64,000 bases of DNA, taken from contig NZ_CP058601.1 of the NCBI RefSeq assembly GCF_013402815.2, positions 1,054,001 to 1,118,000 of the forward strand, in the 5' to 3' direction. Shown here piece after piece: positions 51,725 to 59,042 of this stretch. Numbering within the stretch: position 1 is the first letter of the stretch; the number at the start of each line of letters is the position of its first letter. Source of the stretch: Natrinema halophilum (GTDB lineage: Archaea; Halobacteriota; Halobacteria; Halobacteriales; Natrialbaceae). The position numbers and the translations under genes were made by a program. The notes beneath the pieces were generated by a model. That model was not told where the DNA came from. It saw nothing but the letters and a program-made list of their open reading frames with translations, and searched no databases.

Positions 51725-52176
51725 TTAGGGTTTGCAGTCTACCACCTCTGCTCGAGGGTGGGATCCTCGAGAGAGGTCGTGGAGGTAGACTCCGGGCTGT
51801 GCCAACCAGCCGGTACTCCTATCTGGTGGCGATCCATCCAAATCGGGTGCAGACTCGGAGTTACTTTCGCTACCGTTGATGGTGAGACGGATGTTCTCCG
51901 CCCCGTTCACGTCAGCGTTGAACGCCGCATCACACTCCTCGCAAACGTACAGCCCACGTTCAACACGCTGACTATCGTCCTCTCTACTGCACACGCAACA
52001 CGTCTTACTCGTGTCGCGTTCGGACACTTCTACGACTTCACTGCCACTGACTTTCGCCGTGTAGGTGAGACTCTTCGTGAAGCGGCCGAAGCCCACCCGT
52101 GCAAGTCGAGGTTGCCGTGTTTACCCCAGTTCTTCGACTCGCCGTTCTCGTCATCGCGGACACCAGCAAGTTCCCC
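51725..52176 (-). pseudogene. tnpB: C-terminal part of tnpB, frameshifted
   Basis: Minus-strand homology begins at GELAGVRDDENGES and runs through KNWGKHGNLDLHGWA, the RuvC-II side of TnpB; near 52090 one base is missing, and the rest continues in a second frame: FGRFTKSLTYTAKVSG, EVVEVSERDTSKTCCVC, the zinc ribbon VCEEC, and FNADVNGAENI with the last RuvC Asp. The proper C-terminal end CKP and stop are kept. About two thirds of the protein at the N-terminus is gone, so it cannot be an active RNA-guided nuclease. Confidence 0.85.
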
Positions 52177-52869: not shown

Positions 52870-53199
52870 TTAGTTGTATTCTCGCCAGCGGTGACCGCAC
52901 TCAGTGCACTTGAAAAAGCGCGTGGGCGGTTCGTCAGCCGACGCAGTCTGCTTGAGCGTGTACCACGCTTCTTGGGTGCCGCATTCGTCACAAACGACGT
53001 CGGTCGCCTTCGGTTTTCCTTCGAAATTCGCGTTTTCGTCGGATTCGATCACGTCGTCGTCGGTCTGTGACTCCGTCGTGATGAATGCGTCTTCCCGTTC
53101 CTGGTCCCGTTCGCTCGAGGCCCCGCAGTCCTCGTTCGTACAGACCATATTGTCCCCCTGGGCTTTCATCATCGAGCCGCATTCGTCGCAAAACTGCAT
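52870..53199 (-). CDS. tfs: Transcription factor S (TFS, archaeal TFIIS-like)
   Basis: 109 residues. An N-terminal zinc ribbon (FCDECGSMMKAQGDNMVC, then DCGASS) is joined by an acidic linker to the C-terminal ribbon VCDECGTQEAWYTLKQTA with SADEPPTRFFKCTECGHRW. The Asp-Glu pair in SADEP is the catalytic acid tip that makes stalled RNA polymerase cut its transcript. Length and both ribbons are normal. It is last in the row of genes coming from 55644. Confidence 0.95.
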   Translation of the reverse strand: MQFCDECGSMMKAQGDNMVCTNEDCGASSERDQEREDAFITTESQTDDDVIESDENANFEGKPKATDVVCDECGTQEAWYTLKQTASADEPPTRFFKCTECGHRWREYN

Positions 53200-53267
53200 A
53201 CCGGTTAGCTACGAACTCGAGACGCAAAAATACACCACTCCTCATACGCTTTGGTCCGCTGGTTCCG

Positions 53268-53843
53268 TCACGACGAGTCCTCGAGCATTTCGTCCTCGCG
53301 AACGAACGGGCAGTCCGCAACCCGAACGGTCGTCATCGTTGGGACGGCGAGAATTTCGGTTCCCTTTCGGGAGCATGCAACGTCGGGAGGGTCGGCAAAG
53401 TACTCGCAGTCCTGGCAGTACGACCGTTTCTCGATTTCGTGGACGGTCCGCTTGGTCGGCGTTAGGTCGTCGTTCGAGGCAACGGATTCGTCGGCCTCGA
53501 GTTGCTCCCAGAGCCGATCGCCGTCGATGTCGGCGACGTCCTGACTGTCGAATAGATCGTCGAAGTCGGGCGAACCCGATTTCGAACGGTCGGTATCGGA
53601 TCGTTCCGAGACGGTAGCTGCGAGGTCACCGAGCGGTTTGGGTTGTGCGCCTTCGTCCGTATTCACATCTCCATCGACCTCGGTGTCGGTACGGCTCGGA
53701 GACTCTCGATCGTCACCGTACGTGAGTTCAGTTTCTTGTGGTTCGGTTCGGTCTGTGCCTTCCCGATTAGCGTCGGTTTTGTCTGTGCCTTCCCGATCAG
53801 CATCCTTCTGGCTCGTCTCGTCGCTATTACCTCGGTCGGTCAT
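53268..53843 (-). CDS. Acidic protein with C-terminal Cys cluster
   Basis: 191 residues. The first 120 are Asp/Glu/Thr/Ser-rich and look disordered. The end has EIEKRSYCQDCEYFADPPDV, ACSRKG and VADCPFV, four Cys that may form one metal site. I know this layout only from haloarchaeal hypothetical proteins. Its ATG shares its A with the stop of the preceding gene (TGATG at 53841-53845), so they are translationally coupled. The conserved coupling suggests the two proteins work together. Confidence 0.78.
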   Translation of the reverse strand: MTDRGNSDETSQKDADREGTDKTDANREGTDRTEPQETELTYGDDRESPSRTDTEVDGDVNTDEGAQPKPLGDLAATVSERSDTDRSKSGSPDFDDLFDSQDVADIDGDRLWEQLEADESVASNDDLTPTKRTVHEIEKRSYCQDCEYFADPPDVACSRKGTEILAVPTMTTVRVADCPFVREDEMLEDSS

Positions 53844-54703
53844 CAGTCGGTGCCTCCGTCGTCAGTCGATCGGTTCGAACTGTACTGGTCTGACGCCGTC
53901 CCATCGGCATCGCCCTCGATGGCCTCGAAGACGCCATCAGCTGTTGCGTCGGTCGCTCGTTCGCCGTTTCCTTCGAGGGCTGGTGGTTCGCCAGTTACGA
54001 GTCGATGCGAACCGAACAACGACGATCGTTCGACGACCTCGACGAACTCGCTCCCACAGTGAGGGCACTCGGGCGCAGTCAGCAACGCGATATCGACGCT
54101 CGAATCACAGTCCTCACACACCGCGGTTCGGATTTGGAGTTGGTTCGCCGCCACCTGGAGCCGATCGGCCGCCTCCTGACGGCGGTGTTGCTCGGCGAGT
54201 TCGGCTTGCCAGTCTCGCAACCGGACCACGGCCTGTGCAAGTACCGTCGAACGGTGTGCGAGATCGTCGGTTTCGTCGACCAGGTCATCGAGGACGGTCT
54301 CGAAGTTTTCGAAGCCGCGTTCGACCGTCGTCTCGAGAGTCGCAATGTCCTTCTCGATGGCTTGCCACTCCGCTTCGCTCGGTATTTCGGGGTGATCGTG
54401 GTCGGCCGATGCCTTGCTGTCGGTTTCACGTTTAACCTGAATTACTCGGCTGCGGACGTCCTCGATGAGATCGGTAAACTCCTGGTGTTGGGCCTCGAGT
54501 TCGCCCTGCAACGCCGCAAAATCCTCACGGGCGGCAGGCTCAAACCCGTCGTCGTCGGTCGCTTCGTGGGCCGCAGTCACGAGACGACGGCACATCTCTC
54601 CGGGGCTGTCGCCTCGTCGAGCGGCTTCCTCGGTGAGCCAGTCGGTAATCTCTTCGGATGGGGAAAACGAAATCACACCCTCGTCCCGCTTCTGGCTCGA
54701 CAT
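53843..54703 (-). CDS. Coiled-coil protein with zinc-ribbon segment
   Basis: 286 residues. The N-terminus VISFSPSEEITDWLTEEAARRG with CRRLVTAAHEA looks like a ribbon-helix-helix or small helical DNA-binding domain. Residues about 60-190 are predicted coiled coil (long heptad-like Glu/Leu/Val stretches such as FENFETVLDDLVDETDDLAH). VCEDCDSSVDIALLTAPECPHCGSEF is a rubredoxin-like zinc site. Its role is unknown; a structural or DNA-linked regulator is a fair guess. Coupled to the downstream gene. Confidence 0.78.
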   Translation of the reverse strand: MSSQKRDEGVISFSPSEEITDWLTEEAARRGDSPGEMCRRLVTAAHEATDDDGFEPAAREDFAALQGELEAQHQEFTDLIEDVRSRVIQVKRETDSKASADHDHPEIPSEAEWQAIEKDIATLETTVERGFENFETVLDDLVDETDDLAHRSTVLAQAVVRLRDWQAELAEQHRRQEAADRLQVAANQLQIRTAVCEDCDSSVDIALLTAPECPHCGSEFVEVVERSSLFGSHRLVTGEPPALEGNGERATDATADGVFEAIEGDADGTASDQYSSNRSTDDGGTD

Positions 54704-54807
54704 CTACTCGAAAATGTGGTCGCGCTCGCATAAGGGTTGGTTCGAACTCAGCCGCTGAGTTCCGGCCGGCGTCGACTTTTCCGGCCGTCCGCCAACGACG
54801 ATACCGG

Positions 54808-55644
54808 TTACCTGATCTTGCGGACGTTGCTGATATCGAATCCGCCGTCGTGGATCTCGGTTTCGAACCGAACGATGTCCTCGTCTTCCAGGCGGGAGAG
54901 AACCCCTCGAAACTCTTCGACGACGAGGGTTCTGGCCCGCTCCGACCCGCCGCTTTCCCACTCGAACGAGAGGGTACCGTCCGTCGCTTCCTTGAGTCGC
55001 CCCAGATCGGACGGCTCGAGCACTTCCGCGTTGACGAGCAACAGGATTACGCCGCCCCAGCGGTGAGATGCTCGTTTGAGGCCTTTCAACAGAACGGTCA
55101 GATCCGAGAGACCGAGACGGTCGTCGGCCGCCGCAATGAGGTCGGTCAACGAGTCGATCACGACGAGATTACCCGTCGCGTGATCGGTCAGGAATTCACC
55201 CAGCGCCTCGAGAACGTCGGTGCGTTCGCTTTGACTCCCTAATTCCGTGATGTCGGCCATCCCGTCTGCATACCAGTTGGTCGGGACTGGCGTCACCTGG
55301 AAGTACTCTTCCGCGAGTTCGACGAACGAGACGTCGGACATCCCTGCATCGACGAGTTCGTCGTCCATGACGAACTCCATTTCGCTGACGACAGCGCTTC
55401 GCTCGTCCGTAAACGAGACGTAGTGGATGGATTCGGGGACCGTCACCCCCTGCTCGAGATCGCCGTAATAAAGGTCGAACATGTCGGGGTCGACTTTCAC
55501 GAGTCCATTCATAGCCGCACTCGTATAACAGAACTCGCGCGCACCGGCGCCGGATTCACCCGCGAGGAGGACGACGCTTCCGGCTGGAGCACCGCCACCG
55601 ATGGTCCGGTCGAACCGTGAGATTCCAAGCGGCATCCGCTCCAT
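54808..55644 (-). CDS. RecA/KaiC-like protein with altered P-loop
   Basis: 278 residues. It begins with the KaiC/RadA-like MPLGISRFDRTIGGGAPAGSVVLL and a P-loop AGESGAGAREF where Gly-Lys-Thr is replaced by Gly-Ala-Arg, so normal ATP binding is doubtful. LVVIDSLTDLI is a Walker B-like strand, and WGGVILLLVNAEVL a third core strand. Haloarchaea have many such HTR-like proteins. Start 55644 (MERMPLG) or 55635 (MPLG). First of a likely operon of four ending with tfs. Confidence 0.8.
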   Translation of the reverse strand: MERMPLGISRFDRTIGGGAPAGSVVLLAGESGAGAREFCYTSAAMNGLVKVDPDMFDLYYGDLEQGVTVPESIHYVSFTDERSAVVSEMEFVMDDELVDAGMSDVSFVELAEEYFQVTPVPTNWYADGMADITELGSQSERTDVLEALGEFLTDHATGNLVVIDSLTDLIAAADDRLGLSDLTVLLKGLKRASHRWGGVILLLVNAEVLEPSDLGRLKEATDGTLSFEWESGGSERARTLVVEEFRGVLSRLEDEDIVRFETEIHDGGFDISNVRKIR

Positions 55645-55979: not shown

Positions 55980-57215
55980 TTACTCGTCCATGGAGGTCCA
56001 TGGGTACGTTCGGATCAGCAAGAATTCCCGATTACCGTCGCCACCGCACCCCGTCCCACCGAGTGCATATCCGCCGTCTCGCGTCTGGATCGCCGACTGT
56101 GCTCTGTATCCGCGATCGAACTGAGCGGTCCATTCTCTGTCTCCGGAGCCGTCTATCTTTACGAGGCCGAGATGAGGCCCCGTGAGCACATATCCGCCGT
56201 CGAAAGTCGGCTCGATCGATTTCCACGCGCGATCCGGGAGAGTCACCGTCCACTCAGACCGTCCGATCGGACACGTCTTTACGACGCGCGTATGGAACGT
56301 CTCGCCCGATTGAGACACCAGTCCCACGAAGACGAACCCATCGTCGTGAGCCGACACGATAGATGAGGCGTTTTCGCGAGCATTGCTGGTCCCGAACGAC
56401 GTGAGGAACTCCTCGGTGACGCGCTCCGAGTGGAACTTGCACTTTCCGAGCATTGCGTCTTGCCTTCCGTCCAGAACGGTCCCGACGTGGGTTCCGACGA
56501 ACGCAACCCCGCCGTCTGCTGAGACCACGAGATCCGATACGGAAACCATATCGGATCTTGAATATTCCCCCACTGCGTTTCCGCGTCGATCGACCTTGAG
56601 AATCGAGGCTCGTGGACGATCGAATCCACCGGCTGCGAATCCACCGTCGACCGTCTGAGCGATGGAAAATAGCGTTCCGTCTCCGCCGTACGTTCGTGAC
56701 CACTCGAGCGAACCAGCTGCGTCCGTTCGAGCGATCCAGAGTTCCGATTCGGCGCCGCTTATTCCACCGGCTATGGCATAGCCGCCGTCGGTCGTCTGCA
56801 CGACCGAATTTATCGTCCCCCACCCGAAGGTTCGCGTCCACAGTTCTCGCCCGCCCGGATCAGTTTTCACCATCCACGCATTTGCGATCGCCTCACCGTG
56901 CGATCTCGTATTACCGACGAGAACGTATCCGCCGTCCGACGTCCGGATCAAATCTCGAACTCGTTCGTCGTCGAGACCACCGTACGTACGGCGCCACAAT
57001 TCTTTCGGTCCGTCGTGAACTGTTTGTGTCTTCGAGAGTCCGATATCCGTCCGTTCTTCCGTCGGGCTCCGGTCAGCCGTTTCTCTCGCAGTTCCGGGCC
57101 GTGTTCCGAACGTCCCTGCGCCGAGCAACGCTGTCGATCCACCAAGTGCGCTTCCGAGAACCGTCCGACGAGTAGTTCGGCGTCTTTCGTCCGCCGCGTC
57201 TCTCTTTTCTGCCAT
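55980..57215 (-). CDS. Tat-exported beta-propeller repeat protein
   Basis: 411 residues. The N-terminus RRTTRRTVLGSALGGSTALLGAG is a Tat signal. The rest consists of about seven repeats of the pattern W-x-RTYGG...QT-DGGYA-x-GG, for example SVVQTTDGGYAIAGG and SAIQTRDGGYALGGTG, which make a propeller of blades. Such exported propellers often bind polymers or partners; no catalytic residue is known. Start ATG 57215. It is a single gene with its promoter to the right. Confidence 0.85.
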   Translation of the reverse strand: MAEKRDAADERRRTTRRTVLGSALGGSTALLGAGTFGTRPGTARETADRSPTEERTDIGLSKTQTVHDGPKELWRRTYGGLDDERVRDLIRTSDGGYVLVGNTRSHGEAIANAWMVKTDPGGRELWTRTFGWGTINSVVQTTDGGYAIAGGISGAESELWIARTDAAGSLEWSRTYGGDGTLFSIAQTVDGGFAAGGFDRPRASILKVDRRGNAVGEYSRSDMVSVSDLVVSADGGVAFVGTHVGTVLDGRQDAMLGKCKFHSERVTEEFLTSFGTSNARENASSIVSAHDDGFVFVGLVSQSGETFHTRVVKTCPIGRSEWTVTLPDRAWKSIEPTFDGGYVLTGPHLGLVKIDGSGDREWTAQFDRGYRAQSAIQTRDGGYALGGTGCGGDGNREFLLIRTYPWTSMDE

Positions 57216-57861: not shown

Positions 57862-58842
57862 TCACGTTCCGTTCGTCTCGACGGTAGCCCCCGCCTTGGC
57901 CGGCTCTGTGAGAACGAGACGTCCCTCGAGGCCGCTGTCGGCGAGCGCGTCTTCGGCCGCTGCCCGGGCCTCGTCTGCGTGGGCAGTATCGGTAACGCCG
58001 TAGACGACGGGCCCCCACGACGATTGGCCGACGCCGGAGAGAACCGGACAGTCTTCGAGCGCTTCGACGAGTTCTCCCGCAGGTGGCCGGAAGACGCCGC
58101 CCTGGGCGTCGGCGTACCAGGACCCGTTCTTGCGGCCGATTTCGCCGATCGCTTCCCCGAAGGCATCGAGCCGGCCCTCGGCAGTAGCCGGCAGGAGTTT
58201 TCGAGTGACGACGCCGGCGATCTCGTCGGCCACTGCGGGGTCGGCGCGTTCGACGACCGCGCGCATGCTCGCATCCTCATCGTCCCCGCTGCGGCCGGGT
58301 TCGGCGTCCGGGACGATGATCACAAACCGCCACTCCGTCGGCAGGTCATGGCGAGCGACGACCGGTGGCACCGTCCAGTCGCCCTCCGCAGGTGGTTTCG
58401 TCGTAAATCGATTCGTCGGATGGCCAGCGTCGACGACGAATCTTCCGCCTTCGAACGTCGCAACGCCGACCCCGCTACGTCCCCCTCGTCCGATCGCCGG
58501 GGCGTGGGTCCTGACCCGAGGCCGGCGACCGTGTGCACGGGCCGTCGCAGCGAGCACGCTCAGCGCGAGTTGTGTCCCGCTACCGAGACCGACGTGGCGC
58601 GGGAGCGATTCCTCGAGCGAGATCGACACGCCGGGGACGCCGAGGACGTCGACAGCGCGGGTCGCGTATTTTCGAACCAGTGGATCGTCGGTAACGACGG
58701 CGGCAGCGGGCTCAGCGGTAACGGTCACTCGCGGCCTCGCGAGCCCGACACCGATGCCACCGTAGAGACGCTCACGTGCGAGCGACAGATTCTGAAAGCC
58801 GACGTGGAGTCGCGCACCTGCGCTGACAGTGGCGGTCGCCAT
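57862..58842 (-). CDS. Beta-ribofuranosylaminobenzene 5'-phosphate synthase-like GHMP protein
   Basis: 326 residues from ATG 58842. ATATVSAGARLHVGFQNLS opens the family; SLEESLPRHVGLGSGTQLAL is the GHMP-type phosphate loop, and later LSGVGQSSWGPVVYG is the conserved end. RFA-P synthase joins 4-aminobenzoate to PRPP in the route to methanopterin-type pterins; in haloarchaea, which are not methanogens, it would serve the folate- or methanopterin-like C1 carrier. The frame to 58974 adds a low-quality tail. Confidence 0.9.
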   Translation of the reverse strand: MATATVSAGARLHVGFQNLSLARERLYGGIGVGLARPRVTVTAEPAAAVVTDDPLVRKYATRAVDVLGVPGVSISLEESLPRHVGLGSGTQLALSVLAATARAHGRRPRVRTHAPAIGRGGRSGVGVATFEGGRFVVDAGHPTNRFTTKPPAEGDWTVPPVVARHDLPTEWRFVIIVPDAEPGRSGDDEDASMRAVVERADPAVADEIAGVVTRKLLPATAEGRLDAFGEAIGEIGRKNGSWYADAQGGVFRPPAGELVEALEDCPVLSGVGQSSWGPVVYGVTDTAHADEARAAAEDALADSGLEGRLVLTEPAKAGATVETNGT

Positions 58843-59042
58843 GTCGTGGCGTAGGGGGTGGGCAATCAAGGGAATTTCGACGGTGGCAACGAGGAACCAC
58901 GACGTTCCCTGAGACGTCCGAACCAGGTTACGTCGGAAACAGCCTCGTGCGCAGACACGGGGTTCTCTCCGCACAGTATTCTGCCTCCCGTTCGAACCTG
59001 CCTATCGGCTGTTCGGCGAATTCTTCCAGCCGGTCGTACCGG

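Follow-up and report, generated by a model that had tools for sequence, protein, structure and literature searches.

The 64,000-nucleotide stretch of the Natrinema halophilum genome analysed here (positions 1,054,001 to 1,118,000 of contig NZ_CP058601.1, hereafter the window) contains four closely spaced minus-strand genes. They encode a P-loop-less KaiC/ArlH-like pseudo-ATPase (P1, 54808-55644, 278 amino acids), a protein with a probable ribbon-helix-helix (RHH) N-terminus, a long coiled coil and a zinc ribbon (P2, 53843-54703, 286 amino acids), a protein with an acidic N-terminus and a C-terminal four-cysteine domain (P3, 53268-53843, 191 amino acids), and a paralogue of the transcription factor TFS that lies outside the function of the other three (52870-53199, 109 amino acids). 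P1, P2 and P3 probably constitute an accessory or regulatory module of the haloarchaeal PilB3-PilC3 adhesion type IV pilus, encoded beside an unrelated transcription factor gene. Because the three come and go with the pilus motor and not with TFS, the module is most likely part of the pilus control system. The link to the pilus is strong, and we infer that the module contacts or acts on the PilB3 motor. A first-pass annotation of the window had already described all four open reading frames (ORFs), which were confirmed.

Phyletic profiles were compiled across 194 Halobacteriales genomes, taking strict presence of P1 as E<=1e-30 and presence of PilB3 as a match to PilB3_C (PF23989, the PilB3 C-terminal family) at E<=1e-12, a threshold that places 154 genomes with PilB3 and 40 without. 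P1 and PilB3 occur together in 152 genomes and are both missing from 39, with P1 alone in one and PilB3 alone in two (odds ratio 2964, p = 2.4e-37). P3 and PilB3 are both present in 149 and both absent from 40, P3 never occurring alone and PilB3 doing so five times. The intact KaiC-like ATPase TIGR03880, which exceeds its cut-off in 152 of the 194 genomes, accompanies PilB3 in 151 and is found alone in one; PilB3 lacks it in three, and 39 genomes have neither. Taken together, P1, P3, TIGR03880 and PilB3 are all found in 145 genomes and all missing from 39, leaving ten mixed; the corresponding counts for P1 and P3 are 148 with both, seven with P1 only, one with P3 only and 38 with neither. The control genome of Haloferax volcanii is positive for both PF23989 and TIGR03880. 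Four of the eight tabulated genera hold both states (with/without: g1 7/5, g8 1/1, g13 1/1 and g39 2/1), and in these all four markers switch together; TFS stays constant.

In the 4.84 Mb genome from which the window was taken, pilB3-pilC3 lies around C1:44,000 and TIGR03880 at C1:3,358,613, each more than 1 Mb from P1. In 32 of the 147 genomes in which both could be placed, more than 6 kb separates P1 from P3 or the two are on different contigs; P2 stands beside P3 in all 20 fetched regions where P3 is remote from P1. The link between P1 and PilB3 is therefore independent of proximity on the chromosome.

These profiles also bear on the archaellum, to which the module might belong as a spare ArlH system. 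Pfam and NCBIfam scans of P1 return partial KaiC/ArlH matches, the best NCBIfam model being ArlH itself (equivalog NF052589, 52 bits against a cut-off of 215), and P1 and ArlH are associated with an odds ratio of 10 (both in 124 genomes, neither in 29). However, P1 occurs without ArlH in 29 genomes and the reverse is seen in 12, compared with one and two for PilB3, and ArlH is missing from four of the seven P1-bearing genomes of the window's own genus. An archaellar role is thus very improbable.

TFS fares no better as a partner. The first-pass annotation had identified the last gene correctly, the protein scoring 70.7 bits against the TIGR01384 cut-off of 64.75, and had proposed a pseudo-RecA and zinc protein complex that cooperates with TFS during elongation or on DNA. 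The conserved neighbourhood and the zinc-type cysteine patterns in three of the proteins are in keeping with such a complex. Window-type TFS is nevertheless present in 188 of the 194 genomes; of the 39 that have no P1 match of any kind, 36 keep it, and its association with P1 is weak (both in 150, P1 only in three, TFS only in 38, neither in three; odds ratio 4, p 0.11). Since TFS persists without P1, and since this association is so slight beside that of P1 with PilB3, the partnership is disfavoured. The TFS gene also has a promoter-like box of its own, and the ORFs picked from loci L174-L192, which contain P1 relatives from outside the crown haloarchaea, include none that matches TFS. TFS surroundings were inspected in 20 of the 36 genomes that keep TFS but lack P1. 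A GHMP kinase gene lies within 2 kb in 17 of them, and the distance is at most 400 bases in 13; P1 and P3 had no match near TFS in any of the 20, and P2 was seen only as one remnant (locus L133 of genome G177). We consider it highly unlikely that the three proteins form such a complex with TFS or have a role of that kind at DNA. TFS is a bystander that probably acts separately on RNA polymerase: the neighbourhood is conserved, and the functional link does not hold up.

A further indication of a tie to pili comes from more distant relatives. With the P1 alignment as query, a search of the phylum recovered full-length relatives from families that do not belong to Halobacteriales, and 20 regions from this search together with L210 (genome G008) make up a set of 21 loci outside the crown haloarchaea, one of which, L193 of G010, represents a deep lineage of haloarchaea. 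In all 21, P1 directly precedes an intact KaiC-like gene, with a gap of -11 to +29 nt, and this partner invariably keeps GxGK[ST]; the three copies scanned (L174, L177 and L193) score above the TIGR03880 cut-off. PilB-type (GGTASGKT) and PilC-type genes are present in 16 of the 21 loci, and the single archaellin/pilin-type gene scanned is at L176. None of the 21 contains a P2 or P3 match. It could be argued that there is no direct tie, and that genomes leaving surface-attached life lose pili and module for separate reasons; phyletic association alone cannot separate this from a functional link. The P1-TIGR03880 pair nevertheless lies beside pilB/pilC in those 16 distant loci, and we regard separate losses as scarcely credible.

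The TIGR03880 copies themselves differ in length. In the three haloarchaeal copies inspected (L207:5095-6291, L213:5674-6798 and L214:5811-7016), the N-terminus is considerably extended and includes a common VxAVSD...DWF-like stretch; the methanogen copies, at 232 amino acids, are too short for it.

Several observations weigh against assignment of the module to the pilus. The PilB3 cut-off of 1e-12 was placed after the list had been seen, where no value falls between 2e-13 and 1.3e-11, and the association p-values treat related genomes as independent and so overstate their independence. PilC profile scores leave the genomes undivided, and PilC was rejected as a marker. Genomes G019 and G028 have very strong PilC matches (E 3.9e-165 and 1.1e-160, respectively) without P1 or TIGR03880, and are possible counterexamples; both are drafts, 88-89% complete. 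G008, from the same genus as G028, contains P1 and TIGR03880 and misses the PilB3 cut-off. A pilB/pilC gene was not found in five of the 21 outside loci. P3 is missing from five P1-bearing genomes (G008, G010, G085, G097 and G167), and P2 from ten, five of which have P3 (G113, G123, G152, G157 and G162); P2 is also cut short in G037 and G136, relatives within the window's genus. As P2 is absent or shortened in these P1-bearing genomes, it is not essential.

P1 looks like an inactive member of the KaiC family. Structures were predicted with AlphaFold (AF2) for P1 and P2 only. The P1 model, with a mean predicted local distance difference test score (pLDDT) of 74.7 and a predicted template modelling score (pTM) of 0.79 (the four other models scored 48-60), has the RecA/KaiC core fold, superposing on KaiC (8dba) and FlaH (4yds) with VIA-align Z scores of 20.8 and 20.6, respectively. 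The Walker A site, where GxxxxGK[ST] is expected, reads GESGAGAREF in the window, confirming the earlier description of a KaiC/RadA-like protein without a P-loop. For wider comparison we used the best 80 of 207 named P1 relatives, which with the window give 81 haloarchaeal P1 proteins; the nearest named matches are from Natrinema. GAG[AG]REF is found in 79 of the 81 and GSGAREF in one, the last having a mis-called start, so that the Walker A lysine is absent from 80 of 81; it is absent too from P1 in all 21 outside loci. An alignment of 20 P1 sequences has alanine or glycine at the lysine position. A pair of glutamates after strand 2 is catalytic in KaiC. P1 has [YF]x[ST]FT by pattern in 78 of the 81 proteins (three unmatched), aligned partner KaiC proteins have SLEE in eight of 11, and hhalign superposes the [ST]FT stretch of P1 on the SLEE stretch of the partner. 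The C-terminus of P1, GFDISNVRKIR, is almost invariant. Judging by its model, P1 is a KaiC-fold protein that lost the P-loop lysine, and from these motifs it looks catalytically dead. Assignment of P1 as a DNA repair or RadA protein was rejected: KaiC and FlaH top the lists, and RadA/Rad51, although Rad51 is among the Foldseek rows, is weaker by sequence.

P2 is a probable ribbon-helix-helix/coiled-coil/zinc-ribbon protein. Its AF2 model (mean pLDDT 80.4, pTM 0.46) comprises two RHH-sized N-terminal helices at residues 17-30 and 34-50 (block pLDDT 75-95), a long coiled coil and a zinc ribbon, in agreement with the coiled-coil zinc protein first annotated. The CxxC...CxxC motif supplies four zinc cysteines that are kept in 66 of 67 aligned sequences, the other being gapped there; Pfam and NCBIfam return weak zinc-ribbon and coiled-coil matches for the window protein. 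Relationship to SMC/Rad50 or FlaC was rejected, the matches being generic coiled-coil ones that unrelated coiled-coil families equal or exceed. P3, rightly called acidic and cysteine-tailed, has no match in Pfam or NCBIfam scans of the window protein, and its four C-terminal cysteines are kept in 67 of 67 aligned sequences.

The main rival to a motor-associated module is transcriptional control of the pilus genes through P2, in which P2 binds DNA, P1 and TIGR03880 form a KaiC-like switch and P3 is a co-regulator, with no motor contact. It draws on the RHH signals of P2: RHH_1 matches in eight of 34 members (best E 5.8e-4), a profile match to the antitoxin EndoAI (4me7, E 4.4e-4), and Foldseek matches to MatP, Arc and CopG that lie only at E>1 and are suggestive only. 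A precedent is the KaiC homologue CirA, whose deletion is described in the available text of PMC13286277 as altering archaellum gene expression in Haloferax. Against this, the RHH_1 matches are weak and missing from the window protein's own list, some members look degenerate for RHH, and P2 is the least constant member of the module. The 21 outside loci, moreover, have no P2 or P3 match, yet their P1-KaiC pair lies mostly by pilB/pilC. We therefore regard purely transcriptional control as rather unlikely.

P2 was detected in 145 of the 194 genomes, two of them without P1 (G049 and G177). In G177, a P2 remnant (L133:6474-6782), probably a relic of recent loss, lies between the GHMP kinase gene and TFS; P1, P3, TIGR03880 and PilB3 are absent by the cut-offs used. 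P2 of Natrinema thermotolerans (L045) is reduced to 82 amino acids, retaining the N-terminal part only, and in Haloterrigena sp. H1 (L046) P2 is undetected; P3 is present in both. P3 overlaps or directly trails P1 at G113:C1:217341-218608, G152:C1:408684-409930 and G157:C79:2957-4254, in genomes in which P2 was not found. That P3 adjoins P1 where P2 goes undetected suggests a closer partnership between P1 and P3.

For the favoured reading, a module serving the PilB3-PilC3 pilus, we propose that the dead P1 and the active TIGR03880 protein would be subunits of one KaiC-like assembly. This assembly may dock on the cytoplasmic PilB3 motor and, by analogy with ArlH and its motor ArlI, could gate pilus formation according to its nucleotide or phosphorylation state. 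P3, joined in most species by the coiled-coil P2, would be a haloarchaeal addition scaffolding the assembly, and the RHH of P2 may tether it to DNA or a promoter. In haloarchaea the genes would have been dispersed and P2 and P3 added. A bolder version, in which P1 and TIGR03880 form a mixed dead-active ring that serves as a nucleotide-driven switch or timer on PilB3, linked to the chromosome by P2 through its RHH and coiled coil, is quite improbable; if true, one protein assembly, and not ordinary gene regulation, would join pilus assembly to DNA-bound information.

The arrangement of the genes is conserved among the 80 named loci. The same-strand order P1-P2-P3-TFS is found in 56, more than expected by chance, and P1-P2-P3 in 66. 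As first noted, the stop codon of P2 and the start codon of P3 have one base in common in the window (TGATG); at 65 of the 66 named loci having both genes, the overlap is 1, 4 or 8 nt. P2, P3 and TFS are all away from P1 in 12 of the 80 (Halorussus, Halobellus, one Halopenitus and one Halolamina), other DNA separates P3 from TFS at many Halorubrum loci, and in some lineages P2-P3 stands apart from P1 or from TFS. An AT-rich box at about -30 relative to the start codon, the TATA position of leaderless transcripts, precedes each of P1, P2 and TFS. The minus-strand box before P2 (54730-54733) has A/T at -30 to -28 in 67-81% of 67 sequences, and that before TFS (53226-53232) at -29 to -27 in 77-88% of 60; the alignment of upstream regions has no such box before P3. 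Two terminator-like sites were seen, against 3.4 expected from shuffles, and both are within genes. The original description of an operon is too strong, given the separate boxes of P1, P2 and TFS and the splitting off of P1 or TFS in some lineages; there are likely three transcription units, P1, P2-P3 and TFS, on the evidence of these upstream signals.

The box before P1 (55666-55682, minus strand) is unusual: it is GCCACAACAnGTAAnCG-like in relatives, recognisable in many of them, and overlaps the AT-rich TATA position. It is possibly an operator for autoregulation. A regulon defined by this box was rejected (two genome matches against one in a reversed control), and the CsmR motif TATCA(N4)TGATA is, by eye, dissimilar to it.

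Upstream of the module, most relatives have the GHMP kinase gene (57862-58974, minus strand), with a match in 70 of the 80 named loci; it is usually retained when the module is lost. A scan for conserved ORFs found that the clusters present in more than 50 loci are module or neighbour genes together with opposite-strand frames interpreted as antisense; the next cluster that looks like a true gene occurs in 24. Between the GHMP kinase gene and P1, the window encodes a 411-amino-acid, repeat-containing and probably exported protein (55980-57215); a single one of the 80 named loci contains a match to it, at a different place. An ORF fragment at 51725-52096, with CxxC...CxxC, resembles by eye the C-terminus of TnpB/IS605-type proteins.

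Two TFS genes are present in the window's genome (52870-53199 and L036:1498-1806). The eight zinc cysteines and the tip DE are invariant in an alignment of 29 sequences (A4). The tip loop reads QTASADEP in the window protein, QIRSADES in the distant copy and QTRAGDEP in 1qyp. All 60 extracted window-type sequences have QT[AG][SA]ADE, in which the loop arginine, three residues before the tip aspartate, is replaced by alanine or glycine; in the two alignments inspected, 1qyp and Pol I A12.2 retain it. Window-type TFS thus keeps both zinc ribbons and the tip DE of known TFS proteins, differing in this loop residue, and may have altered cleavage activity. The tfs genes have multiplied independently in Halobacteria, according to the available text of Fouqueau et al. 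(2017, PMC5715097).

The module offers specific candidate genes for adhesion-pilus control, and for two of them (P2 and P3) Pfam has no dedicated family. It is also a case in which a conserved, operon-like neighbourhood indicates the wrong partner and phyletic profiles a better one. In the literature searched by title and abstract, there is no description of a haloarchaeal P1-P2-P3 module with a dead ATPase in lock-step with PilB3, although one may exist in print elsewhere. OE4643R of the Halobacterium taxis network, considered as a candidate, is a DUF151 protein.

Among known systems, ArlH (FlaH), the archaellum partner of the motor ArlI, resembles P1 in being a single-domain KaiC-fold protein with a link to the motor of an archaeal type IV filament. 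P1 differs in lacking the Walker A lysine, in occurring without ArlH and in having a separate, intact KaiC-like partner. CirA, a regulator of Haloferax motility and cell shape, resembles the module in being a haloarchaeal member of the KaiC family that acts on type IV filament biology, and is reported in the available text to adjoin an archaellin gene (PMC13286277). In G111 the TIGR03880 and ArlH matches are on separate contigs, and in G176 more than 1 Mb lies between them, so TIGR03880 and CirA are probably different proteins. The module tracks PF23989, the ATPase family of the PilB3-PilC3 adhesion pilus of H. volcanii (PMC6491452); the available text of that paper assigns PilB3 to clade 2 and names no accessory KaiC-like or zinc proteins, and the word KaiC is absent from it. 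Also close are the KaiC-family genes noted near pilus operons in some archaea by Makarova et al. (2016, PMC4858521), who, in the portions available, suggest a MinD-type ATPase as the ArlH counterpart for the pilus clade to which PilB3 belongs. The methanogen P1-TIGR03880 pairs are probably these same genes. Unmentioned in those portions are the dispersal of the pair in crown haloarchaea, the joining of P1 by P2 and P3 beside TFS, and the link to PilB3 by phyletic profiles. Thus the occurrence of KaiC-family genes near archaeal pilus operons was already known, and what is new, as far as we have found, is the haloarchaeal module and its lock-step with PilB3.

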